Positions 1,590-56,330 of a stretch of 64,000 bases of DNA are shown here, in pieces; positions within the stretch are counted from its first letter, which is position 1, and each line of letters opens with the position of its first letter. The notes under the pieces are model-generated. The model worked only from the letters and a program-made list of their open reading frames with translations. It made no database searches and had not been told where the DNA came from. The DNA comes from Siphonodentalium dalli (lineage: Eukaryota; Mollusca; Scaphopoda; Gadilida; Siphonodentaliidae), in assembly GCA_032622095.1 (NCBI GenBank), contig CP136066.1, positions 90,355,319-90,419,318 of the forward strand. The letters are read 5' to 3'. Made by a program: the position numbers and the translations under genes.

Positions 1590-2413
1590 TTTGCCATGTG
1601 CGCAAAGCGCACACAGGGGCCGCATGCAGGCCCCTCGATCTGACTCTGAATAAAGGCTCCGGAAGGCAGCCAGTTTCAGCCAGTAACTTATAATCTTAAA
1701 GGCACGGATGGCACTGGTTGTAGGTTATAATTTAAAAATTAAAGTCACCAAATTATGAAAAATTCAATTTTAACCAATGTTCACTTCGTTGGGTCTCCCT
1801 GATGTTGAGTGTTTTGAGTATCGCATACTCTTTACTGCACTGTACCATCGCGAAGGGCATTCGTATCTTTAATCTATATAAACAAGATTTATTTCTTATA
1901 AGTTTATCCCAGTATTTGTAAAAAGGGTATAGAATTCCACAAAATTGATACATAAATTGCTATAATTATGCAACATAATTATCCAAGTGCAAATAGGTTG
2001 ATATTGAACCTGAAAATTCACAAAGTTTCATATTGAACTTATTTATTTTGATTCTGCAATAAGCTCATATTGGGCTTATGTCCGTTATTCCGATTTATGG
2101 CGCGGGCCACAGTGAAAACACATTATACAGAGCGTGCGTAATTATGGTAAGTCGATTTAGGTTCACATAGAACGTGAAAGAAATAGTGCCGGTATGGGAT
2201 TATTTGTGTTTTTGAAATAAGTTTAATATGAGCTTATTTTCAGGAGAAAATAGATGAACCTGTATTAATTGCCATACGACCTTGCCTAACACTGCTTGCA
2301 GTGCTCTTCCTAATTGGAATGTGTTTCCATGGAACATATGACTACTTTTTGCAGTACAATTCTAAACGTACCACAACTTCTCACACTTTAATAATTAAAC
2401 AACACGAGAATTG
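1586..2413. other. Intergenic or intronic AT-rich stretch, no gene seen
   Basis: No exon with homology and splice borders was found. A weak inverted relation links AATAAGCTCATATTGGGCTT near 2060 with TTTAATATGAGCTTATTTTC near 2222, suggesting a decayed hairpin element. Confidence 0.4.
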
Positions 2414-2418
2414 GTTAA

Positions 2419-2680
2419 CCCTTCCATTACTGGAGCTTCCTGACATTTTGCTCAAACCCTGTGCCAATGCATTCTGTAATATATGCGATTCTCCCATATG
2501 TAAGAGAATTCATTGGCCTGATAATATTTACCTTGACCAAGTAATTAATTAAGCTTGTTAGCCAGTGCATTCTCTTATATATGAGAGGCTCAATGGGAGA
2601 CTCGCATAATATATATAAGATAATTCACTTGCACAATATCGTTAATGCTGCACCATCGCTGCTCACGCGTCATGAAAGGG
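2419..2680. mobile_element. TTAA-flanked hairpin MITE (family TTAA-H)
   Basis: The element is bounded by TTAA (2415-2418 and 2681-2684) with terminal inverted repeats CCCTTCCATTAC / ...CATGAAAGGG. The inside carries the family hairpin built from TGCCAATGCATTCT..TATATATG and its reverse complement. Relatives occur near 5.9, 25.0, 33.2, 34.2, 43.0 and 62.8 kb. It ends 35 bp before the first iGluR exon in the window. There is no transposase, so it is nonautonomous. TTAA specificity suggests piggyBac or Kolobok mobilisation, which is inference. Confidence 0.75.
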
Positions 2681-2715
2681 TTAAATTCATACTTAAATGT
2701 GTATTTTTCCGACAG

Positions 2716-2806
2716 CTACACGCTTATTGAGCCTCCGGATGGACAATGGGGAACACCTAACCCCGACGGCACTTGGACTGGCATGGTTGGAATGGTTCTT
2801 AGAGGC
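2716..2806 (+). CDS. Ionotropic glutamate receptor subunit, S1 ligand-lobe exon (partial gene)
   Basis: This is the first recognisable exon of an iGluR gene that continues at 5486, 6510, 10857 and 24391. Its 91 bp open with the third base of a codon and read YTLIEPPDGQWGTPNPDGTW then TGMVGMVLRG. That matches the start of the iGluR glutamate-binding lobe S1 (pattern Y.L....DG.WG.....G.W.GM...L). The borders are CCGACAG before and GTAAGT after. The exon ends in phase 0 and joins exactly to the next exon, which begins with the S1 motif VDFIAAPL. The preceding amino-terminal domain exons are not found in order in this window. The product would be a membrane cation channel subunit; subtype is not assigned. 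Confidence 0.85.
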
Positions 2807-3021
2807 GTAAGTATATATTATGGTATATTGAACAAATCAACCTTCCAGTATCCAATTGTATTTGGCGTCAAGCTTAAGGTCCATTCTAAACCCTTTCTAT
2901 ATTGAATGGATTGTCTCACATAGTTAATAAAGCATATATTGGAATGGTAAAATATTGATCTGGATGGGTTTTCAGAAAGAAAAAACAAGCAGGCGACAGA
3001 AAATACAAGTATTATGTTAAC

Positions 3022-3480
3022 ATGTCCTCAGGGAACTATACAATCGTTACTAGCATATTGACTAGCTCTATACAGACCTCCGATCAGTCACCACATTGCT
3101 GCACAATACGGACAGTTGAATCGGATCACAAGGATCTCGCCATTGGTTCCTTTAATTTGGTATTTTCATCAGAATCAATCATACCTGTTAAGAACCATTG
3201 GAAATTCACAGTTTATGAGGCGATCACAGTTAACTCAAATAACCAATGGCAAAAACTAGTATCATTGCAGAGTGATTTCGATCGTTTTTCTATTGACCAT
3301 CAAAAACTTCAAATATCCCATATTTGGAAAGCATGTCACAAAAAGTGTTATTTTTTCTTTGTGCAACAACTGTTTATGTTGAAATTTAATGAAGATGTTT
3401 TCTGCACAAGGTGTGGTCAAGTTTATAATGACACAGTCAAACACGTTTTGCATGACTGTGACTTTCTTAACAACTCATGA
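3022..3480 (+). pseudogene. LINE (non-LTR retrotransposon) ORF2 C-terminal fragment
   Basis: A 152-residue open stretch ends with FCTRCGQVYNDTVKHVLHDC, the C..CG....D...HVL..C zinc-knuckle-like tail found after the reverse transcriptase in many animal LINEs. It is preceded by a W/L-rich thumb-like region. No polymerase motifs lie upstream, so this is a 5'-truncated copy, as is usual for LINEs. It lies inside an iGluR intron. It may belong to the same broad group as the LINE at 40.8-45.2 kb, whose 3' end is missing, so they cannot be compared directly. Confidence 0.55.
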
Positions 3481-3538
3481 AATGACGCTTGGTATCGTTT
3501 TTGTAGCATTTTCATATAGACCATGTGTATTGATAGAA

Positions 3539-3810
3539 TAAGCGATGTCACTGGGTCGCGGCCGTATATATTGGATTCATCCAGCTCCTTTCCGCGCATG
3601 GTTTCAGAGATTCTTCCAGTCCCGGTTCCGTGGTTTTAGTGCTACTGGTCAAAGTTTTGGAGTATAGCATTTCCATATATGGTGCTTTTGAATTATTCAT
3701 GACTTCCATATATGGAATGCTACTCCCCAAACTTTGACCTATAGCAGTAAAACCACGGAACCGGACTTGGAGGATCCAATATGACCGCGAGTTAGTGACA
3801 GGGCGTATTA
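3539..3810. mobile_element. Palindromic MITE, family A (copy 1)
   Basis: The two halves are inverted: the left holds ATATTGGATTCATCCAGC, GTTCCGTGGTTTTAGTGC and AGTTTTGGAGTA, and the right holds their reverse complements. The centre is near 3690. A diverged second copy lies at 60384-60644 in AHSA1 intron 1, with the same order and the same terminal GACAGGGC.TATTA. No protein is encoded. Confidence 0.8.
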
Positions 3811-5485: not shown

Positions 5486-5810
5486 GAAGTTGACTTCATT
5501 GCTGCCCCCCTAGTGGTAACATGGATACGAGACACCGTGATCGATTTCGTTAAACCTGTCATCGATGATGGGGTCGGGATTATGACGTTTGGAGATGACG
5601 CAGACAGGACGTTCAGACTGTATGAACCATTCGCATGGCCGGTGTGGGCTTCCGTTGCCATGGCAGTTCTCGTGACCGGATCTGCTTTGACGATCGCTGC
5701 ACAAATTCGGAGGCGGAGAGAGATATCAAACGATGACACTGAATCGCCCACAGACGAAGTCAGCTTATCCGGAAACATGTGGGTCATATTTTCTTACTTC
5801 TTGGAACAAG
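5486..5810 (+). CDS. iGluR subunit, exon with end of S1, M1 and pore loop M2
   Basis: The 325-bp exon has acceptor TTTATAG and donor GTAAATG, phase 0 in and phase 1 out. It begins EVDFIAAPLVVTWIRDTVID, the S1 motif whose Arg (WIRDT) binds the ligand alpha-carboxylate in iGluRs. It continues through FVKP, then membrane segment M1 (PFAWPVWASVAMAVLVTG) and a basic linker QIRRRRE. The pore loop is SLSGNMWVIFSYFLEQ, aligned with the AMPA-type SLWFSLGAFMQQGC. Glu (GAA, 5804-5806) stands at the Q/R position, where Gln, Arg or Asn is usual. The last base plus the next exon complete the glycine of EQGC. Confidence 0.92.
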
Positions 5811-5869
5811 GTAAATGTTATAATTAATCAAACTGCCGGTGCATGATAAAAAATAATATAAAATTTGTT

Positions 5870-5986
5870 AGGCAAATGCTTCTCTATTGTATGCGAGGCG
5901 ACCTATGGTCGACTCGCATATATAAGAGAATGCATTGTCACAGGATGTTTAATGTTACGCCAGCGCAGCTGCCGTCATGGAAGGGT
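5870..5986. mobile_element. TTAA-H hairpin MITE, 5'-truncated copy
   Basis: It contains the family hairpin with arms ATTGTATGCGAG/CTCGCATATATAAGAGAATGCATTG around GCGACCTATGGTC, followed by the terminal arm GTCATGGAAGGG and TTAA. The left terminus is missing. It lies just after the M2 exon of the iGluR. Confidence 0.7.
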
Positions 5987-6509
5987 TAATTAGTTATCAC
6001 ATTTTTCACTTGAGCGATATATATTATGGACCTCGACTGATATCACTCTAAACTCTGCTGATAACTCACTAAACTAGGCTGTTAACACCGCTGGTAACAG
6101 TTGTGACGTCATCAATTGAAGCGTAGTGTTTACGTCCAACATAATGTTTACGTCATCGCGCAGCCAGGAGTCGCGTAATCGAGTACACTTGGAGAGTTGT
6201 TTCCTATATATACAATTAACAGGAGGTTATTCGGGCGCTGCTCCGAGTAACTCATGGAATATTTGGTCACCGATAAAAAGGATATATCACTTCATAGCAT
6301 GCAATGACAATAACAATGATTGTCGTGCAGTTTCTTTTATAACTGGTGGTGGATTGACTTACATTGGATATAAACGTACCCTGTTTCGTTGGATATTTGC
6401 GGCCAAGCTGGCTAGTTTAAAAACTTTCATTCTCAAATACCCGAATACCCAACCCAACCGAGTACGTTTATCTCCTAAATGCCACATGCGCGATATTTCC
6501 CCCACACAG

Positions 6510-6727
6510 GGTGTGGACCACGACCGAAGGCGCTATCTGGTAGATTCATCGTTGGATTTTGGTGGCTGTTTACTGTCCTGATGGTATCCACATATACAGC
6601 TAATCTAGCTGCATTCCTAACCGTTGCTGTCCCATCGCGCGCTATAAACAGCCTGAGAGAACTCGCTGACCAAGATGAAGTGAAACCGTTGGTTATTCAG
6701 GGAACAAATCTGGAAACATTATTCGCG
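6510..6727 (+). CDS. iGluR subunit, M3 exon and start of S2
   Basis: The 218-bp exon has acceptor CCACACAG and donor GTAAGT, phase 1 in and phase 0 out. It completes the pore-loop glycine, then reads LSGRFIVGFWWLFTVLM, leading into VSTYTANLAAFLTV. This is the hallmark M3 gate motif of iGluRs, with Thr for the first Ser of SYTANLAAF. S2 then begins with SRAINSLRELADQDEVKPLV and QGTNLETLFA, where AMPA-type receptors have the GST ligand-contact turn. Translation across the 5810/6510 junction matches the family without gaps, which fixes both splice sites. Confidence 0.93.
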
Positions 6728-7404
6728 GTAAGTTTCTATATATGTATTTACATATATATATTCAACAACGTTCACATTCATATATACTCCACAACGTTTA
6801 CATTCATATATATCAAACAAACTTACAACCATTCATTTACTGAATGGATTATACCATCAGTTATAAAAGTATACATTGGTATGGTCTTTTATTCACATGG
6901 AGGGGTGTTCAAGATATATGCCAGGTTGGTGACGACAGCTGCATAATTATTCAATTATTGGTCGAATAAAATGTCGCAGACCCCATGCTGAACACATAGC
7001 GAATATCAAAAGATTATCTTGAATACTGACCAAGTTATCATCCGAACAACCCAGATATTATGATTTCTTAAGTCGAAAACGGATCTTCGTCAAAAATCAC
7101 CCGACGGGACCATAATCAAACATGGCTGCGACCTGTCAAAGGTAAACCACGTACCATGGTAGACAGTTTGATTTATTTTTGTAATCTGACACATATAAAG
7201 CTAAATCTATACAGAATGAACCGGAAGATTACTATTTCTTAAATCATAATTTTAACTTTGTTACATTGAAAAATAAAATGTTCAATCTATAAATTTAACG
7301 TTTCATTTAGGCTTAGAATGGGCTCAACAACTTTTATATTCAATTTGCTTTTTAAGGGAGGTCATATTTTGGTGCTCCCTGGTTACTGCTCTACCAAATT
7401 CACC

Positions 7405-37051: not shown

Positions 37052-37681
37052 TTCTTATGATGCTAGGCGATACTCCAGGTTATGACAATTAATATTTTAT
37101 GGGTAGGTTAGATAGTAGTTACAATTAATTGCACTTGAGCGCAATTAATCATGCTTAAGTGCAACTCATAATGCTTAAGCATGAATGCCCTATTTGTACT
37201 TAAGCACAATATTTCGCACTTATGCACAATCGTTTGCCCTTAAGTGCAAAACAATTTGCTTAAGCGAATTCAATTGCACTTAAGCGCAATTCAATATAAA
37301 TGTGAATGTGGCCTCTCATAATCATATTACCCAGTTATAAGTTCTAAGTTCTTTATTGATATGGTAGACTCGCGATAGCATTACCTTCTGTTTTAGTTTC
37401 CCAACTTCAAAACCTCAAAAAAAATTATGACATGGACATACTATAGATCTGTGCAAGAGACGCTGATTTAATAAAACTACCAGAGCTCGAGGAGTGAGAC
37501 ACCAAAGCTCCCGGAATGAAACACATATTTTTGGGACAGGGATGCTGATAATATGACAATATTTAGGGTTTTTCACCCGATTTAAGTCAATAAGTACACC
37601 ATATGAAGTGAGCAAACCCTCATACAGTGATATAAAATATTAATTGTCATAACTTGGAGTATCGCCTAGCATCACAAGAAG
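37052..37681. mobile_element. 0.63-kb foldback element beside the Penelope-like element
   Basis: Arms of about 49 bp: CTTCTTATGATGCTAGGCGA TACTCC at 37052 faces GGAGTATCGCCTAGCATC.CAAGAAG ending at 37681. Inside are a palindromic CTTAAG satellite (about 37120-37290) and module copy 2 (37335-37632). The right end directly abuts Penelope-like coding sequence, whose reverse transcriptase lacks its N-terminal part. Confidence 0.65.
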
Positions 37682-38300
37682 ACACACAACAATTTCCAGT
37701 ATAACGGCGACAATTTCGTTCAAATTAAGGGAACAGCCATGGGTACGCCTATGGCTCCTCAATTCGCTAATATATTCATGGACAATCTAGAAACTACTTT
37801 TCTTCAGTCATCGGACCTCAAGCCATCGAACTACTACAGGTTCATAGATGATATTTTCTTCACTTGGGAACATGGCGAAGATAGACTGAAGGAATTCCAC
37901 GCGGCATTTAATGACCAACACCCTGATATAAATCTCAAAATGGAGCATTCTAAAGAGTCTGTCAACTTCTTGGATGTTACTGTCAACATTGTAGACGGCC
38001 ACATCAACACAAAAGTCTATCGCAAACCTACGGACAAATTTACTTACCTGAACCCGAACAGTTTCCACCCCGATCACACTAAATCGTCCGTCATATACAG
38101 CCAAGCTCTACGTTATAATAGGATATGCAGTGACTCGAAAACGCGGGACATACAAATCGGGCATCTTCAGCAGAACTTCGTCAACCTGGGATATAAGCAG
38201 AGAGTTGTAAACAGAGAGATAAAAAAGCAGTTGTCAAGGACAGGGTGGAACTACTTCAGTATAATTCCGACGACAACGCGTACCATCAGAATACTCCATC
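37682..38300 (+). pseudogene. Penelope-like element, reverse transcriptase (5'-truncated)
   Basis: The frame opens with FQYNGDNFVQIKGTAMGTPM APQFANIFM, the palm entry GTAMG typical of Penelope-like elements. YYRFIDDIFFTW follows (FIDD catalytic pair), then LKMEHSKESVNFLDVTVN and VYRKPTDKFTYL. RT motifs before GTAMG are missing where the foldback element abuts. The frame ends at 38317, but the protein continues in another frame from about 38260-38300, so there is a frameshift. Reverse transcription of the element RNA is the family role; this copy is inactive. Confidence 0.9.
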
Positions 38301-38980
38301 AAAAATACCACTGGTAGTCACATTTCATCCAAAATTACAAAAACTAAAAACTATCGCCAAGGACCTACAATGTGTGCTTCAAAATGATGACAAACTGCGT
38401 GATATTTTCCCTGAATTACCTTTAATGTCATATCGACAACCTCCGAACCTCCGAAAGAGTCTAGTTAGAGCACAGAACTTGCATAACAACCAACAGAACG
38501 GAACATACCCGTGCGGAATATGGAATTGTGCAACATGCTCTTCTGTGACAAATGGAACTCTGACCAACAGTACCGGGAAATCTATCACACCGAGTGGGTT
38601 ATTCTCGTGCAGCTCTGAAGGTGTTGTTTATGCTCTGACGTGCAGACAGTGTCCCGGGCTTATCTACATCGGAGAGTCGGGCCAAACCCTCAGAGGCCGT
38701 ATGAATGGACACCGGCATGACATAACATCAGACAGAAAATATATTCGTGCCCGTGGGAGAACATTTTAACTCTTCTCGCCATTCAGAGGAAGAACTCGAG
38801 GTCAGAGTTCTCAGAGCAGGATTGAAACGACTGAGAGCAAGGAAAGCAGTAGAGTTGAAATTGATAACCTATATGGATACCATCCGGAAACGGTTAAACA
38901 GGGACTATGGTTTTCTCTCACATTACGCTTTACTGCATAATTTCCGGGGAATTCGGCACTCGGGAGCAGCCGCGACATAG
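38290..38980 (+). pseudogene. Penelope-like element, linker and GIY-YIG endonuclease
   Basis: After a frameshift the text reads VTFHPKLQKLKTIAKDLQ, a Cys pair CGIWNCATC, then VYALTCRQCPGLIYIGESGQ TLRGR and HRHDI. This is the GIY-YIG nuclease core (here LIY..YIG) with its downstream Arg and His. A second frameshift near 38745 moves to GEHFNSSRHSEEELEVRVL and then a Glu-bearing helix, ending at 38980. The nuclease nicks target DNA for priming in this family. Order RT then GIY-YIG identifies the EN(+) Penelope group. Confidence 0.88.
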
Positions 38981-42764: not shown

Positions 42765-43146
42765 CCCTTTACCCAACGAACCGGCCAAAACCGGCCAAAT
42801 AAAGCTTCAACAGCCTAAAATATCTTCGGTCTGTCTCAATAGAACCATACAAATATGGATATCATTGGAACCGGCTCCTTGACCACATTGTGATAGTTAC
42901 AGTTATGCCCTGTGCCAATGCATTCTCTTATATATGCGAGTCGACCATAGGTCGCCTCGCATATATAAGAGAATGCACTGGCCTAAAAAAAATCTTTTTT
43001 TACCATTTTTTCTTACATTCTTTAACAATTTTATAATTTTTAATGTGTTAAGCCAATGCATTCTCTTATATATGCGAGGCGACCTATGGTCGACTCGCAT
43101 ACATAAGAGAATGCATTGGCACAGGGCCATTCTGTTGGGTAAGGGG
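42765..43146. mobile_element. TTAA-H hairpin MITE inserted in the LINE endonuclease
   Basis: CCCTTTACCCAAC and GTTGGGTAAGGGG termini lie between TTAA at 42761-42764 and 43147-43150. The interior matches the 24.8-kb copy almost base for base, with a deletion in the T-rich spacer. MITE plus one TTAA is 386 bp, and removing it places GGTGTTAA before ATCCAATT in one frame with the endonuclease. Confidence 0.93.
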
Positions 43147-43150
43147 TTAA

Positions 43151-44505
43151 ATCCAATTTTCTTTATTTGTCGTCACTACTGAACTCTCTAGAGTACGATA
43201 TTCTTGGTATATCCGAACATTGGCTAAATGAAGAAAACCTGCCATTTCTGCATTCTCTACACAAGTCATATACTGCTTTATGCAAAGCTGGACGTATTAT
43301 AACCACGAATTCAGGTGGTGTCGCTCTTCTCGTGAACGAACGAATCGCAAAACAATGTGTTGCTATCAATATCCCAAATGATCGATGCGTTGGTACCCAG
43401 ATCAAATGGAGCACGAATGTGATCTTGACTATACTACAAACATACTTGCCGAGTACAAACCACAGTGACGATCATTTCAAAAATTGCCTCGAAAACGTCT
43501 CTGATTTTATATCGTTATTCTCAACATATGGACCTGTGATAACTATGGGTGATCTAAATGTGCATATGTGCCGTACCCACTCACGAGCAGCATGTGCCGA
43601 CAGGACACGCTGACATAATGTCTTTTATAACAGATTTCATGCACCGGGAGAATTTGTTCTCTGTCACAACTTCCATATCGTGTGCGGGACCCCCGTCCAC
43701 GTTCTATCCGGCGTCTGTTGTGGCTTCGCCAAGTTGCATTGATGACATCTTACTACCACTTGAATTAAACGACCTCGCAACACGTCGTGCCATTCTCGGT
43801 GACAGCGAACAGAACACGTCTAACCATTTGCCTGTGACCTGCTGTATTGACATTCCACCCGATTTCTCTAGTGTATTGTCACCTTTTAACAGGCTTTCTT
43901 TCAACTGGGATAGGATGGATATACCCCTCTATCAATTGTCTCTGGATAACTACCTCTCCGACATTATGAACATCGTTATCGTTTCTAAACACGAATTTGA
44001 CTCACTGTGCACCGAAATTGTCAGTGGTATCATATATGCTTCTGTTGTCGCTAGTGGTTCAAAAACACGTCATAAATCAGCAAAACATTTCTGGAATGAG
44101 GAATTGCGATCGCTACACCGTTCTCTAAAGGAAACGCGGAATATATGGTTCGCCAAAGGTAGTCCGCACGCGTGTGACGTGCAGTCGTACATGGAGTACA
44201 AAGCTACGAAGCGACAATTTAGACAGTCGTTGCGTACTACACTTCGCCACAGCGAACAGCAGGTGTACGAAAAACTCGAGTTTCACGCAAAGACTAATGA
44301 TGTCCAGTTTTGGAAAACGATCAACTCGAAGGATCAAGTTTCGCAATCAAACGGTTTTTGTTCTGTTATGACATTTGGTGACAAAACTCTTCGCAATCCA
44401 GCTGATATCATGTCAGCCTGGAGGTCTTATTTCGAAAGTCTATACAAACCAGGTATCCACGCTGATCCGGAATTCGAGGAATCCATATGGAATCACATAC
44501 AGATT
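43151..44505 (+). pseudogene. LINE ORF2 endonuclease domain and linker (frameshifted)
   Basis: DILGISEHWLNEENLPFL (catalytic Glu), SGGVALLVNERIAK and ITMGDLNVHM (Asp-Leu-Asn) are in one frame. Near 43575-43610 the frame changes to FITDFMHRENLFSVTT, then CIDDILLPLELNDL and SNHLPV, where the usual SDH is SNH. A Lys/Arg-rich linker toward the RT continues to about 44505 (FRQSLRTTLRHSEQQVYEKL, ADIMSAWRSYFESLYKPG). This APE-type endonuclease would nick target DNA for priming; the copy is dead. Confidence 0.88.
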
Positions 44506-45160
44506 TTGCAGACACTACTTTCTGTGAACCAATTACTGTTTATGAACTGATAGATGTCATGAAAAATCTCAAACGTGGGAGATCTAGTGGTATTGACAAT
44601 GTAGTGAACGAACATCTCTTACATGGAAGTGACTCCTTCAAATCATAAATAATGTGTCGACTTTACAATAGTATATTAGACTTGGAATGGATACCACCTT
44701 CCTTAAAAATTGGCATCATTGTTCCCTTATTCAAGGGGTCTCCGAAACCTATAAATGTTCCAAACAGTTACCGTGCTATCACACTCATGTCAGTGATCTA
44801 TAAGACATTCGAAAGCATGATGTTAGACAGATTTCTGAAGGATGGGAATTTTACTAGATTTCCAAACGAGCTTCAGAACGGCTTTCAGAAAGGAGTGAAC
44901 TGTTTGGTGACATCGTTTGCCCTCCAGGAGGCAGTTTCCTATGCGGGCGATATAGATTCAAGAGCATTTGTATGTTTTTTGGACTCTGCGAAGGCATTTG
45001 ATTGTGTGTGGCACGAAGGCCTTCTTGTAAAACTATACGATCTAGGCTTAAAAGGTAAAGTTATGCGTGTAGTGGCAAACATGCACAGGAATTGCACCAG
45101 TCGTGTAATGTACAGCGATTCGCTCTCGGATCCATTGGACATCTTACAAGGAACATAGTC
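44506..45160 (+). pseudogene. LINE ORF2 reverse transcriptase, N-terminal half (3'-truncated)
   Basis: It enters with VYELIDVMKNLKRGRSSGID, a TAA at 44646-44648, then IGIIVPLFKGSPKP, NSYRAITLMSVIYKTFE, ELQNGFQKG and FVCFLDSAKAFDCVWHEGLL (motif A Asp). It stops at DILQGT before the Q/G.PLSP and YADD motifs. LINEs normally lose the 5' end, so loss of the 3' half points to a later deletion. Confidence 0.9.
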
Positions 45161-49072: not shown

Positions 49073-50560
49073 CATGATTACCCGATTGTCGTCTCTGATT
49101 CTTCTAAGCCCAATTTAAGGGGCAGGGTTTCACAGAATATACCAGTACAACCTTTAAATGTATCAAATTTTGAATTGTATTCGGTGATTCATGGAACATC
49201 AACCAATTTGGATTCTGAATTAAATGAGGTTAGCTGGGAAAGTGACCCAGAATTTGACTGGGGCCCGCTCAAGAACGACTTTGAAGAAAATAATCAATCT
49301 GAGTCGACTTCAATGGCAACTCTTAATTGGGAGGTTCCAGTGATTCAGGGAGTCTGTGGCCCGCCCTTTGAAATTTTGGACTGGAATCAGGTCGACATTC
49401 CAAAATATTCACAAACACAATGTTCTTTGCCACAAAATTCAGATGTTTGTCATATCAGTTCATTGCAGGAACTGAATTTTGAATTATTGTCGCCCTCAGC
49501 AAAATTTTATGTTGAAGCAAATCAAGTAATATCTTCATCTGGTATTCCAAACTTTCTAAATTGTAAGATTCCAATATATTCCAAACTAAATATTCCTTAC
49601 ATTAGAAACCAGTTAGTGGACTACTATGACAAACAATTAATTGATTTTTTACAGTATGGTTTCCCCATAAATGTTGATAACTATAATTTTCAACAACAGA
49701 AACACATCTTTCGTAATCATAGAGGAGCCCTACAATACCCAGAAATTGTAGCCCAATACATAGATAAAGAGATAACGAATGGTTCCGTCGTAGGCCCTTT
49801 TCAAGAGAACCATTTCTCAAAAGAAATTCGCATTTCACCCTTGAACACAGTTCCCAAAAGAGATACAGAGGATAGAAGAATTATATTTGATCTGAGCTTC
49901 CCCCAAAACAATTCAATTAATGAACTTATTGGAGATGAAGAATACTTTGGTCAGTCTACCAAAGTAGCATACCCTTCAGTGGATAACCTGGTAGATCTTG
50001 TGAAGAATTTTGGTAAAGGATGCCTTCTTTATAAACGGGATCTTCGTAAAGCATACAGACAAATTTTTCTGGATCCCGCAGACGTTCATTACATGGGTTT
50101 TATCTGGGAGAAACAGTTATATTTTGACACGGCACTGCCCATGGGATTAACATATTCTGCCTATATCTTCCAAAGGGTTTCCTCTATAATTCCGTTTATG
50201 ATGCATAAGAAAAGATATTTTCTTCTGAATTATCTAGATGATTTTGCTGGAGCCGATTCCATTCAGAATGCTAATTTAGCCTTTAATTATTTGATGAAAC
50301 TTCTGAAGAACTGCGGTCTGAAAGAGTCTGTTGAGAAAGCTTGTGCCCCCAATACAACAATGCTCTTTCTTGGAATAAAGTTTGACACTATTTCCCTTAC
50401 ATTGAGTATTGATGAAGACAGAATAGAAGAAATTTTAAGCCTAGTTAATATTTGGATGAGTAAGAAAAGGGCCTCGATTAAAGAATTACAGTCTTATTGG
50501 GTAAACTCCACTTTGTTAGTCAGTGTATTAGGCAGGGCGAATTTTCGTTTCTAGGCTGCT
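49073..50560 (+). pseudogene. DIRS/Ngaro-like reverse transcriptase
   Basis: In frame with gag after one TGA. The N-terminal 180 residues are acidic and unassigned. The RT contains GSVVGPF, ISPLNTVPKRDTEDRRIIFD, LYKRDLRKAYRQIFLDP, LPMGLTYSAYIFQ and the catalytic LNYLDDFAG (YLDD), then TTMLFLGIKFDT. Near 50490 a base loss breaks KELQS, and a second shift near 50535 returns to the frame that continues LLTWLRE. The RT copies element RNA; DIRS-type RTs belong to the Ty3-related branch. The copy is inactive. Confidence 0.92.
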
Positions 50561-51180
50561 AACTTGGTTAAGAGAATGCAATTACAGAACTCCAAATAGG
50601 CAATTGGTTATTCCAAGCTTCATTCATGCAGATTTATTATGGTGGTCAAAATTCCTGAGAGAATTCAATGGGGTGTCGATTATGCAGATGGAACAATGGT
50701 CAAAACCAGATGAAGTTTTCTCAACAGACGCCTGTCTTTCAGGGTGTGGTGGAATCTTTAATACTCAGTTCTTTCATGCCTCTTTCCCATCTTTTATAAC
50801 AGACAGAGAGTTAGATATCAACTGCCTAGAATTATTAACAATTTGCATAGCCTTTAAACTTTGGAGTGGACAGTTACGCGGAAAGAGGATTAAAATATTC
50901 TGTGACAATCAAACTTCAGTCACTGTAATTAATGCAGGAAGAAGTAGGGACAACTTTTTACTAGATTGTCTTCGTGAAATTTGTTATTTGGCAGCACAAA
51001 ATGAATTTTAAGTAAAAAGTGTTCATCTCAGTGGCAGGGCTAACAGAGTTTCTGACCTGTTATCGAGATGGGACACTGAGTCAAACGCAGAAGCAAAATT
51101 TTATTCAATTATGACAGAAAATGGCCTGGCAGAAAGTATGTCAGAGATATCAGTTGATCCGGAGCTTTTTAAATTCAGAA
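50561..51180 (+). pseudogene. DIRS/Ngaro-like RNase H domain
   Basis: EVFSTDACLSGCGG (first Asp), LDINCLELLTICIAF (Glu) and KIFCDNQTSVTVIN (Asp) give the RNase H acidic set. After a TAA at 51009-51011 the frame continues HLSGRANRVSDLLSRW, the usual final helix with N..(A)D.LSR. No DNA methyltransferase-like domain follows, so this resembles Ngaro or a reduced DIRS more than full DIRS1. Confidence 0.88.
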
Positions 51181-51663
51181 ATAATTGGTAGTGAATATTC
51201 AAAAGAATTTCGGATGGCGAGTAATGGGAATTTTGAACACTTCCTTGTAGATGCGGAACTGCAGAAATTAAAGGAAGAAACAAGAAAGTCTCACCGATCA
51301 GCCTTTGCCGAAGGGACCAAGAAAAATTTGAAAACCCAATTTTTAGCCTATCTGCGTTTTTGTATTTATTTTAGCCTAGAGCCCTTACCGGCCTCAGTTC
51401 AGACACTCAGTCTTTATGTACAATTTCTTAGTCGTTCATTCCAATCTCCTTCAGCCATACAGAATTATCTATCAGGAGTAAAAAATTTGCATGTTTCTCG
51501 TGAAGTAAACTTTGATGCCTTTAGTGCATATTATCTGAAACTTTTGATGAAAGGCATTTCTCGTGAGAACCCACACTGCCCTAAGAGGGCCTTACCAGTA
51601 ACTCCACAAATATTCAATGAAATGGTTAATTATATTGATTTTTCGTCCCCACTGGACGTTACA
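51121..51663 (+). pseudogene. DIRS/Ngaro-like tyrosine recombinase, 5' part
   Basis: It overlaps the end of the RNase H text in the +1 frame. FAEGTKKNLKTQFLAYLRFC, PLPASVQTLSLYVQFLSRSF and SAIQNYLSGVKNLHV form the SAM-like core-binding domain of YR retroelements. The catalytic domain is just beginning (LPVTPQIFNEMVNYI) when the foldback element interrupts at GTTACA 51658-51663. The recombinase would integrate the circular DNA copy without target duplication. The start codon is uncertain. Confidence 0.9.
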
Positions 51664-53170
51664 TATGGAAGCGTATTGGTGCCATTTTGAAAAGAAAAAA
51701 AATGGCCCAGTAAGTGCTAATTAGCACATACGTATCAGCTAATTAGCTGATAATAACAGCTAATTAGCACATAGTAAGTGCTAATTATCACATACATATC
51801 AGCTAATTAGCTGACAATAACAGCTAATTAGCTGATAATAACAGCTAATTAGCACATGCGTATCAGCTAATTAGCTGATAATAACAGCTAATTAGCACAT
51901 AGAAAGTGCTAATTAGCACATACATATCAGCTAATTAGCAGATAATAACAGCTAATTAGCTGATAATATCAGCTAATTAGCACATACTTATCAGCTAATT
52001 AGTTGATAATAACAGCTAATTAGCACATAGTAAGTGCTAATAGCACATAAATATCAGCTAATTAACTGATAATAACAGCTAATTAGCTGATAATGTCAGC
52101 TAATTAGCACATACGTATCAGCTAATTAGCTGATAATAATTTTCGAGAACGGTAAGGATTTCGACCGATTTGACGGCATGGGTGGGTGGCCGGCCCCAAA
52201 TACCACCTAGAAACACCCCGACCCCCACCATCACCCCCGGGGGTGCCACCCCGAGGGGGTGAAAATGGGGTATGGACCATTTTCGAGAACGGTAAGGATT
52301 TCGACCGATTTGACGGCATGGGTGGGTGGCCGGCCCCAAATATCACCTACAAACACCCCGACCCCCACCCCGAGGGGGGTGAAAATGGGGTATGGGTCGG
52401 GGTGTTTCTAGGTGGTATTTGGGGCCGGCCACCCACCCATGCCGTAAAATCGGTCGAAATCCTTACCGTTCTCGAAAATGGTCCATACCCCATTTTCACC
52501 CCCTCGTGGTGGCACCCCCGGGTGATGGGTGGGGGGTCGGGGTGTTTCTAGGTGGTATTTGGGGCCGGCCACCCACCCATGCCGTCAAATCGGTCGAAAT
52601 CCTTACCGTTCTCAAAAATTATTATCAGCTAATTAATCAGCTAATTAGCTGATACGTATGTGCTAATTAGCTGATATTATCAGCTAATTAGCTGTTATTA
52701 TCAGCTAATTAGCTGATACGTATGTGCTAATTAGCTGATATTATCAGCTAATTAGCTGTTATTATCAGCTAATTAGCTAATATGTATGAGCTAATTAGCA
52801 CTTACTATGTGCTAATTAGCTGTTATTATCAGCTAATTAGCTGATACGTATGTGCTAATTAGCTGATGTTATCAGCTAATTAGCTGTTATTATCAGCTAA
52901 TTAGCTGATATGTATGTGCTAATTAGCACTTACTATGTGCTAATTAGCTGTTATTATCAGCTAATTAGCTGATACGTATGTGCTAATTAGCTGATCTTAT
53001 CAGCTAATTAGCTGTTATTATCAGCTAATTAGCTGATATGTATGTGCTAATTAGCACTTACTATGTGCTAATTAGCTGTTATTATCAGCTAATTAGCTGA
53101 TACGTATGTGCTAATTAGCACTTACTGGGCCAATTTTTTTTCTTCAAAATGGCACCAATACGCTTCCATA
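51664..53170. mobile_element. 1.5-kb foldback element inside the recombinase, 6-bp target duplication
   Basis: Ends TATGGAAGCGTATTGGTGCC and its complement are flanked by GTTACA (51658-51663, 53171-53176). Each arm is about 0.45-0.55 kb, built of tandem AGCTAATTAGCTGATAATAA-type units that are themselves palindromic. The 0.48-kb core has four GC-rich blocks (GGTAAGGATTTCGACCGATT, GGTGGGTGGCCGGCCCC), two forward then two reversed. There is no coding capacity. Confidence 0.93.
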
Positions 53171-53502
53171 GTTACATACTGGTGTTTGTTTTTGTTAGCC
53201 TTTTTCCTAATGGCGAGAAAATCTAATCTAATCTAATCTAATCCAATAGCTTAGCTACAGAGACATCCAAAATTCTTTCTCGCAAAGACATTACATGCCT
53301 TAAAGACCAATTGATTGTTACGATTAACTGGACAAAAACTATTCAGTTCGGTCAGAGAGTGTTGAAGATTCCCATTACTGCCATACCAAAATCAAAATTC
53401 TGCCCTGCCAGTGCCTATAAGCATATGATAGCCCAAGTACATGCACCAAATAATTCACCAGTGTTTGTTAGAATAGTGCAGGGCAATATACAGTCTATGT
53501 AA
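53171..53502 (+). pseudogene. DIRS/Ngaro-like tyrosine recombinase, 3' part (truncated)
   Basis: After the second GTTACA the frame reads TYWCLFLLAFFLMARKSNL, including the first catalytic Arg (ARKSNL) of YR retroelements. A pentanucleotide run at 53221-53240 breaks the frame. It resumes with SRKDITCLKDQLIVTINWTK then TIQFGQRVLKIPI and FCPASAYKH. The H..R and Tyr motifs are missing, and the element is lost beyond about 53490. Confidence 0.88.
53221..53245 (+). repeat. (ATCTA)4 short tandem repeat in the recombinase
   Basis: Four perfect ATCTA units plus ATCCA lie directly after the ARKSNL codons. They introduce a TAA and a frame change before the next conserved block. Confidence 0.9.
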
Positions 53503-53504
53503 AC

Positions 53505-56330
53505 ATACACTCAGATTCATACTGATACTGAGTCTATTGCATTCCCATCAACTTTTCATTTCTGAACGGTTGTGGGCTTCCCCCAAATTACGTCACACGG
53601 CACTAAATATAAATCTGAAATTAGTTGTGATTGACAGGCGTAAACATGGCCACGTGCCAGTGCCGTCATGGCCGCTTCAACCCTGTGAAGCCGATTCTAA
53701 GAATCGGAATTAATAGTTGCAGGGTTTGTGACTTTTCTTTCGGCGGTTGTTTTACTGACAATAAAGGGAAACAGCTAGCTTCCGTGATCCAAAATAATAT
53801 GTACAATAACTAAGACAGATCTTCTTGAAATTATAAAAAATGTCAATTTATGTGGATCTCTTGGACTCAGAACGAATTATTTTTTAGATTGGCCAGGCGA
53901 TTTGTCGCCCATGTTGTCAAAAAATAACACAAATCAACGGCCACGAATCAAAAATACATGAATGTCGGGACTATCTGCTAAAACAACTACAGAACTAAAA
54001 AAAAGTTAAATGACATAACAAAACGATCTATCAGTTCCCCAGTACCGGCAGTAGTACCACCGCAGCCAAAACGAGCGTAGAGCAACACAATTCTACCACC
54101 AACCCCCCGAAACCCTCCCGACCTTACACAGCCGTATTATTAGCTCCAAAGATTGGCCAATTGTACCCTAATTACAGTTGCCTGCAATCCAAATTCCGGT
54201 GATTCTTGATTTTAAACTTTCGACCGCTCGTCAACAATCTACTTTATTTGTCGATTTGTGAATTTCTCTTCCGGTATAACATGACGTCATGGATACTATT
54301 TTAACAACATTTAGCCACACCTTCGGAATTTCCACACCGAGAGCACTAGTCCAAGTCTTCTTGTACTAAAACCAGCTAAGATATTGGGATGGCGATTTGC
54401 TGTTTATAAATACACACATGCAGGGTAATTGTATGTTCGCCAGAACATGATATCTATCATTACAGTGCCAGATTGTTTTTCTTGTTGCCGGGGATGACTC
54501 TTCCTTTCGATTGAAAGAGCTTCCCAGAGTTGGTCACCCTGAGTCATAAGTTCCGTAAGGGCGAGGGTCGGGGGTCCATCTCGTGCTAGTGACAGAATTT
54601 CTGTCTGGCTATTGTAACTGGTAGGAATTGTATATAATTTATTGGATGATTATTTATTAATGTATATGTTATATGATGAACCAATTATCATGAAACCTCT
54701 TGAATACAGAATGTAGTGCATATTCACATTACGGTTAGTGCAAAGATGGATGCCAGTCTTGTTACAGGGAGAGTGCTAAGGAAGGATAAAAAACTTATTG
54801 ACTTTCTTTTTCATTTTTGGCTGGCCTTCGGTTTGGCGGTGTTCTTGCCAAAAATAATATTTTAATGGGAATTCGAATATAAGTTAACTCCATATACATG
54901 AAGTAGTCTGATCTTATCAAGCTATTTCGGTTCGAATATCTATATTCCACATATAAAAGTCATAATTCATTTGTCAGCAAGTTATTTACAATGACACCAT
55001 TCTCAACATATGAATATGAATCACAATGTCACGTGAATATTACTGTGTCCAGGTTATTATTACTACTACTACCCGGTACCAGTTTTAATTGTCTAATTTC
55101 AACACTGATTGTGTAAACTGTATAAGTGTAATCAATGCCTGTATAAGTCATCAACTTCAATAAGTGTATTGTCTTTGTATTCAGTATTGTAATTGTCAAT
55201 ATAAATTATAATACATCTAACTTCTAATATCGATTTTAGGGAGCGTGTAGCTCCCTACTTTTTCGGCAAATAAATTATAATCAGTATATTTTTGTCAAGT
55301 CGTTTATTCTCTGGAAGATTGTATCTAATTAATGCCTGGATTCTCAGTTTTAAAATGATGGCCATTATACTTGTTCGTGATGAGCAGTGCTTGTCTTGTG
55401 GTGAATTGTGCCCATTGGACAGTGTTTTGCTCAGTTACCGTAGAATCACCCACAACCCTTATAAATTAGCCAAAAATCCGATACCAGAATCCAATATGGC
55501 GGCCAAGATGGCCGCCGAAATGTGAAAATATGCTATTTTTTCAGACATGTTACAACCTTTCGTTTGTCTCTGTGGGAAAATGTTAGAATTTTTGCGTCAT
55601 ATAATACATTTTTCATATAGAGGAGTCATTGGCGAACACATGGGGACCATAATATGCATTCATTGCGGGATATTTTTGTCCGATATCACGTTTTCCCAAA
55701 TGCCGGTATCATAGGTCAAAGCCGAATCTCCGTTAATAACGCGATGTTATGTTTCGAATCAATGAATGTTATTGCTATTATAACAACACCCATGCATATA
55801 TATATAGCTCTTGTGTGAGTCTTTGCACTTATATAGGACTCCTCATCTTCGTCTCTATTCGCTTGTTGAAAATTATTACCAAGTTATCACCCCCCTCCCA
55901 ATGTCGCCATGTCCCTGTAGATATATGGGCAAGTTATGAACAATGAAAACTTCTTGCATTAGCAGTTTAACAGTCGTTGACTATCTTGTGGCAAACCGGA
56001 AGTTTGATAGGTGTCGCTGTCACTAATTTTTCTAGCAAATTCCACACGCTGCAAAATACCCAAAACAATCATCCCCTGTTATGTGAATACGCTACCATAG
56101 ATCGACATAAATATAACTTGTTTATATCAGTGAACGAAGATTTAAGATTTTTTAATTCATCATTTTGAATATACTTCGATTGAGGAACTGTATACGACAA
56201 CCGAATCTTGAATTCGTTTCGACCCACGACAACAGGGAACTTACTTAGTTACAACTTACAGATAATTTTGCTGGTATAAATTTTTATTCGATTTTGCGAC
56301 TCGACACTCCGTGTTTGGTCTTACTGATTT
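53505..56330. other. Intergenic stretch upstream of AHSA1, no gene seen
   Basis: No exon was recognised. A word GGGTGATTCTACGGTAACTG occurs at 45418 and, inverted, near 55430, marking a dispersed repeat. CCAATATGGCGGCCAAGATGGC lies near 55490. No TATA box is evident in the 150 bp before the AHSA1 ATG. Confidence 0.4.

Follow-up and report, generated by a model that had tools for sequence, protein, structure and literature searches.

A foldback insertion with IS3EU-type ends and palindromic iteron arrays in the scaphopod Siphonodentalium dalli

A 1507-bp insert in a retroelement of the scaphopod mollusc Siphonodentalium dalli is, in our judgement, quite probably a non-autonomous DNA transposon that was inserted recently, has IS3EU-type ends and target-site duplication (TSD), and would have been moved in trans by the integrase-type (DDE) transposase of a coding relative. 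The insert lies in a 64,000-bp stretch of genomic DNA (hereafter the window), and further copies were sought in the 2.23-Gb genome. What is new here is the anatomy: a common end, palindromes that differ by family, and a step of 21-22 bp from both ends. Long, internally repetitive inverted ends of transposons pose an old question, for which the tested case that we found is Galileo, as described in passages of PMC3688188.

Results

Boundaries of the insert

The insert occupies positions 51664-53170 of the window and is flanked on either side by GTTACA, the two copies of the TSD (left, 51658-51663; right, 53171-53176). Comparison of its two ends reveals a terminal inverted repeat (TIR) that begins with TATGGAAGCGTATTGGTGCCATTTTGAA on the left (51664-51703, + strand) and finishes with its reverse complement, ...CCAATACGCTTCCATA, on the right (53131-53170, - strand); the repeat is free of mismatches for 28 bp and contains 3 over 38 bp. 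When the window was scanned for TAYGG..CCRTA pairs 60-12000 bp apart with an exact 6-bp flanking repeat, two were found in all, and the terminal bases match at 20 of 20 positions in the window element and at 10 of 20 in the other pair. End-like matches number three in the window, the two true ends included (mean in shuffles, 0.56). An end-like TATGGTAGCGTATTCA at 56084-56099 (- strand) is isolated, with no partner within the window, and is perhaps a decayed end or a chance match.

The host is a retroelement whose stretch 5' of the interrupted frame (49073-51011, + strand) comprises a reverse transcriptase (RT) frame at 49073-50551 (Pfam PF00078) and a second open frame at 50532-51008, without a match to any Pfam family, which we take to be RNase H-like. 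The frame broken by the insert has its 5' part at 51115-51663 (+ strand; likewise 0 Pfam families) and its continuation, YWCLF..ARKSNLI and then a stop, at 53177-53236 (+ strand); from its motifs we presume that the two parts together encode a tyrosine recombinase. The host is accordingly read as 'DIRS-like' with a 'tyrosine recombinase' on the order of the frames after RT and on those motifs. With the insert removed the frame is continuous and the joint reads DVTYWCLF..ARKSNL, just as the original prediction had it.

A 324-bp stretch of the host that runs up to the insert served as a query and returned 36 genome matches. Twelve, the window copy included, span at least 284 bp at 89-100% identity; eleven of the twelve end at the insertion point and one (C1:139121442) stops short. 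All ten other long copies that reach the insertion point were read, a shorter match at 78% identity (C2:169079133) being left aside. The insert is absent from all ten, nine of which have one GTTACA and the tenth (L115) GTTGCA; among the host copies read, the insertion is seen in the window copy only. Since ten paralogues read without the insert, its boundaries and the 6-bp duplication are established, and the foldback element with inverted arms and a clean GTTACA duplication that had been proposed from the window is correct. Compared with L106, the window host copy differs at 10 of 763 upstream bases; over 357 bases downstream the two have 16 mismatches and 11 gap positions. The insertion is thus recent on the scale of the host retroelement family.

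Arms, iterons and core

The arms of the window element are inverted across hundreds of bases, 51686-52041 being 96% complementary to 52794-53149 (356 bp). By core count and step analysis the left arm holds an array of 19 TAATTA-centred iterons (51704-52138, + strand), and by core count the right arm holds 24 TAATTA cores (52621-53130, - strand) as the reverse complement of the left array. Most iterons are CAGCTAATTAGCTG, GTGCTAATTAGCAC or hybrids of both, and successive steps of 21, 21 and 22 bp form a 64-bp unit within a higher-order unit of 128 bp. Between the arrays, composition and self-comparison delimit a GC-rich core of 482 bp (52139-52620; 58% GC vs 38% for the window). Two halves of ~241 bp, inverted relative to each other, make up this core, and each consists of two copies of a ~140-bp unit, the second partial. 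As single-stranded DNA, the insert has a folding energy of -826.6 kcal/mol, vs -143 to -157 kcal/mol for four mononucleotide shuffles. The element has the long inverted repeats of tandem subrepeats around a short or absent middle that define the foldback structural class.

Families A and B

With up to 2 mismatches, the 16-mer of the end is matched 770 times in forward and 754 times in reverse orientation across the genome, and a reversed-pattern control 346 and 248 times. From 100 listed places we fetched 34 facing pairs, which together with the window make 35; solitary ends stand outside these counts. An exact 6-bp duplication flanks 32 of the 35 pairs, three of the 32 sites being present twice as segmental duplicates; the hexamers agree at 5 of 6 bases in one pair (L041) and do not match in two (L038 and L045/L046). 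Exact repeats of other lengths, from 2 to 12, were tested in 34 pairs and none was found besides 6. The duplication length, whose tabulation across other copies had been named as the check on the original prediction, is therefore upheld at 6 bp, no other length having been found. A putative 10-kb element at C1:2963792-2973956 was rejected, as its flanking hexamers differ.

The pairs divide into family A (15 of 34, window included) and family B (19 of 34), which in most copies have the first 21 bases in common; the B end continues as ..GCCACATAAAAAT. The B array is built of TATCTCCTAATTAGGAGATAC, with 468 of about 530 steps exactly 21 bp, and the commonest steps in A arrays are 21 bp (202 times) and 22 bp (125 times). 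Over the central 10 bp, palindromic symmetry is perfect in 354 of 393 cores of A and 515 of 571 of B; in most A iterons it extends no further than the central 10-14 bp. A unit similar to that of the GC-rich core is present in 12 of the 15 sampled A copies, the window included. No frame above 100 aa was found in the interior of one B copy (L022), nor any above 200 aa in two long ones (L034, L035).

Three pairs of copies are segmental duplicates in which both members share the site and the duplication and have almost identical flanks (94 bp), yet differ in length: 723 and 766 bp (L012/L013), 2036 and 2136 bp (L014/L015), and 1090 and 512 bp (L025/L026). As segmental-duplicate copies differ in this way, the elements evidently change length after insertion.

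Families C and D and further variants

One B copy (L031, C2:107555973-107560576) holds, at offsets 1592-3541, a nested 1950-bp element of a further family, C, with TACGG ends (TACGGCAGCGTGGAACCGCC), the duplication GAATTG and iterons around CTGTTTAAACAG (GTTTAAAC) at steps of mostly 21 and 22 bp. Genome matches to the C-type end TACGGCAGCGTGGAACCGCC number 180 + 192 (control, 0). Family D has the end ..GTAGAACCGCCACCTCCTC in most copies and iterons around CTTGTTTAAACAAG, with periods of 21-22, 43 and 65 bp. Twenty C and D pairs were fetched, some listed ones such as C2:9391515-9393050 being left out. Twelve have exact duplications, four agree at 5 of 6 bases (L085, L092, L097, L102) and four are out of register (L087, L089, L103, L104); in three of the last group the hexamer is displaced by 2-3 bases (5 of 6 in L087, exact in L103 and in L104, a same-site duplicate of L103). 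The GC-rich unit recurs in one C copy (L086) at about 70%.

The motif TAYGGNAGCGTNNNNNYGCCAC, a count that covers B, C and D and leaves out family A (..GCCAT), has 312 + 342 genome matches (controls, 0 and 0), and more end variants are included among them. One (L117) has B-like iterons and the exact duplication GTGTGG; at a further locus (L118) the hexamer GCTTCG is displaced by 2 bases, and the one Pfam match of a 172-aa frame falls below the cut-off. At C8:44111137-44609337, six forward family-C ends 67-124 kb apart, with no facing partners among the matches listed, look like a segmental tandem array bearing one element end.

Perfect palindromes of at least 16 bp number 112 in 18.1 kb of family A, 167 in 52.7 kb of B (nested C element included), 67 in 11.4 kb of C and 76 in 10.0 kb of D (without L104), against a background of 3 in the 62.5 kb of the window outside the element. 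The sampled families have the common end TAYGGNAGCGTNNNNNYGCC, differing palindromic iterons with 10-20 bp of symmetry, and an iteron step of 21-22 bp, about two helical turns, running inward from both ends.

Target sites

Across 41 distinct target sites with exact duplications, C at -3 and G at +3 occur in none; within the duplication, the preferred bases are G or C at positions 1 and 6 and A or T at positions 3 and 4. The symmetry of such a table is there by construction because both strands were counted; the absence on each side is not. The preference is weak, as would be expected of an integrase-like enzyme.

A coding relative

Of the 241 genome candidates in a profile search with PF24764 (rva_4, an integrase core), 150 were scored and yielded at least 126 hits; 14 control genomes yielded none. 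A solitary B-type left end at C3:35065270 (L119) has one of these hits 2.2 kb inward of it. The array that starts there has 74 CCTAATTAGG cores, with 63 of 73 steps at 21 bp, and stops about 100 bp before a 279-aa stop-to-stop frame. This frame matches Pfam rva_4 with an E-value of 1.3e-29, whereas rve (0.0098), WSD and DUF6947 fall below their cut-offs and no zinc-finger family is among its Pfam matches (E ≤ 1). Its candidate catalytic residues, chosen by motif, are D132, D191 and E231. A phmmer comparison of the protein with PDB gave one match (E 0.26). By a hand estimate, chance would bring an end and a gene together in this way 0.03 times (42 hits, 100 listed ends, about 690 Mb, 5 kb inward), a figure below the true one because ends cluster in the genome; the array between the B-type end and the gene is stronger evidence. 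As no right end was recognised in the 3.1 kb beyond the frame, this relative is not demonstrably a complete element, and none of the loci examined held an intact coding copy bounded by both ends. The search for a coding relative that had been suggested at the outset was thus fruitful as regards the B-type end, the array and the rva_4 frame, and fell short at the right end.

At E ≤ 0.22, 16 of the 19 B loci carry a fragment resembling the N terminus of the 279-aa protein (its first 40 or so residues), for example MDEALQLYFNLGLSYKYIVQCLSNLHGI vs MDEVICFYFKLGLKYKDIIDCLATINGI. The matches are 22-52 aa long at 42-50% identity, in copies that are not independent. Twelve B loci have E-values below 1e-3, two are at 0.001, and L034 and L031 are at 0.024 and 0.22; the variant L117 is at 0.049. 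The best E-value among 50 shuffled proteins was 0.013, so the three weakest hits mean little alone. No such fragment was found at E ≤ 1 in L017, L032, L036, L118, the window or the A, C and D loci. What family A, the window's own, shares with family B is limited to ends, architecture and TSD.

A 294-aa open frame is common to eighteen rva_4 hits, which for the most part score almost identically and seem to be an integrase-core family amplified recently. From 4423 first-look candidates in the same genome, the IS481 model NF033577 produced 67 scored hits. Thirty loci were cut out and one central frame was taken from each, many giving only a short frame off the hit; the long frames (among them L052, L054, L056, L061, L063, L071, L073) were read as Gypsy-type polyproteins or integrases and set aside. 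Neither TATGGAAGCG nor its complement was found in the 3.5-3.7 kb around any of the 30 loci. Exact scanning of viral contigs with the 16-mer end returned 3 matches, all isolated ends, which were rejected as relatives: there is no similarity beyond the 16-mer, and matches elsewhere are short and at chance level. No match was obtained in such scans with an 18-mer internal to the end or a 27-mer from the GC-rich core, and a 22-mer scan of genome contigs likewise gave 0.

Discussion

Superfamily placement

The passages on IS3EU in PMC10045372 and PMC12730594, which group it with GingerRoot, describe a TSD of usually 6 bp, TA..TA termini, ends of the form TAYGG..CCRTA with TIRs over 30 bp (in one study, of rust-fungus families), and a transposase with a DDD/E of IS3/IS481/integrase type and no HHCC motif. 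In the elements studied here the 6-bp TSD is exact in 32 of 35 A and B pairs and in 12 of 20 C and D pairs, with 4 more of the latter at 5 of 6; the ends are TATGG..CCATA in A and B and TACGG..CCGTA in C and D; and the TIR of 38 bp with 3 mismatches is continued by the inverted arms. The window element itself encodes no transposase; the relative with a B-type left end, and no recognised right end, has an rva_4 integrase core and no zinc-finger family among its Pfam matches. The original prediction had held that ends and 6-bp duplication fit no superfamily that could be named with confidence; the IS3EU description, in the passages cited, does fit them. From these features the window element is most likely a non-autonomous IS3EU element. 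We use the label 'IS3EU-like' because the structural features are seen in the element itself and the protein feature only through the relative.

The IS3EU and GingerRoot descriptions, in those same passages, do not mention palindromic iteron arrays, whereas here arrays stand at both ends. Among titles and the opening lines of abstracts we found no report of foldback IS3EU elements or of 21-bp phased palindromic iterons, although named Repbase families may include them; one oyster satellite paper mentions both IS3EU and foldback in the parts available, in separate places. The placement ties foldback structure to a transposase of integrase type and offers a candidate superfamily for a foldback group with hundreds of ends in this genome.

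Foldback elements of other kinds differ from these. Galileo duplicates 7-8 bp of its target, and Tetris is a P-superfamily relative. According to passages of PMC3688188, Galileo and Foldback-like elements of the P superfamily share with the window element long, internally repetitive inverted repeats, but have a transposase of the THAP/P class and long repeat units rather than 21-bp palindromes. The passages available on Tetris of Drosophila virilis give it repeat units of 220 bp, unlike those here, and present foldback elements as an earlier source of satellites (PMC4079207). The Tm1 Mutator/Foldback family of root-knot nematodes has a similar foldback architecture but is Mutator-type, as far as the text available from PMC3169594 goes.

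A possible role for the iterons

That the window element would have been moved in trans by an integrase-type transposase is well supported, and its palindromic iterons are probably binding sites for transposase dimers. Such an enzyme would cut at TAYGG..CCRTA and join the ends to target phosphates 6 bp apart, with weak site preference, while its N-terminal DNA-binding part, as a dimer, would bind the palindromic iterons. Because of the 21-22-bp step the iterons lie on one helix face and could load many dimers; many dimers loaded on each arm would provide specificity and help with the pairing of ends. The foldback shape would arise because the iteron arrays are inverted at both ends, and arm length would drift through gain and loss of iterons. 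The nearest tested case is again Galileo, in which, in the passages available, the THAP domain of the transposase binds sites within the tandem repeats of the long TIRs (PMC3688188); iteron binding in the present elements is predicted.

Tentatively, and with somewhat less than even confidence, we go further and propose that an IS3EU-like lineage may have turned its ends into helically phased docking arrays, in which DNA-binding domain and palindrome evolved together towards distinct specificities without change in the catalytic end motif. The genome holds several families that have kept the end motif, the duplication length and the rhythm while the repeat letters changed, which amounts to a natural experiment on whether these repeats serve as transposase sites. 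If the proposal is true, docking arrays alone would account for the foldback form, the drift in array length and the spread of non-coding families.

The same transposon might instead carry passive iterons, hairpin-prone palindromes amplified by slippage or unequal exchange, a satellite in the making, which we consider rather unlikely. Same-site duplicates with near-identical flanks do differ in length, a change that fits both the transposase-site view and passive arrays; the insert folds at -826.6 kcal/mol, vs -143 to -157 kcal/mol in shuffles; and foldback elements have fed satellites before, as passages on Tetris (PMC4079207) indicate. Yet passive amplification leaves unexplained why differing palindromes in several families keep the same 21-22-bp step and the same place beside the ends, and the array of the coding relative runs almost up to the gene.

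It is very improbable that the insert is instead a member of Dada or Polinton/Maverick, other superfamilies in which 6-bp duplications occur. Polintons have AG..CT ends and are large coding elements. The parts available of the relevant reports do give a TSD of 6-7 bp for Dada and of 6 bp for Polinton, but describe Dada-U6 and Dada-U1 as without TIRs and place the Dada elements with clearly definable termini in small RNA genes, whereas the ends of the window element are perfect TIRs and the 41 distinct sites are varied, with weak preference; a Dada identity was rejected on these grounds. TAYGG..CCRTA is, moreover, the motif printed for IS3EU in one of the two studies cited above. Practically no credence is left for a TA-duplicating element (Tc1/mariner- or PHIS-like) with ends TGGAAG..CTTCCA inside a pre-existing GTTACA tandem repeat, for although the inner TGGAAG ends are bordered by TA at either side, the empty sites refute it: each of the 10 paralogues read has a single hexamer without an additional TA. 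The flanking hexamer also varies by site and is duplicated exactly in 32 of 35 pairs.

Other features of the window

Three further loci were noted, all on the + strand. At 37670-38766 an RT frame (PF00078) is followed by an overlapping frame with YIGESGQTLRGRMNGH, without a Pfam match, which resembles a GIY-YIG part; the locus is probably a Penelope-like element. Frames for an endonuclease (PF03372) and RT (PF00078) at 43143-45155 probably represent a degraded non-LTR retrotransposon. A predicted glutamate-receptor-like gene, in keeping with an animal host, is marked by ligand-gated ion channel frames at 5486-6943, where PF00060 scores above its cut-off at 6479-6943 and below it at 5486-5824.
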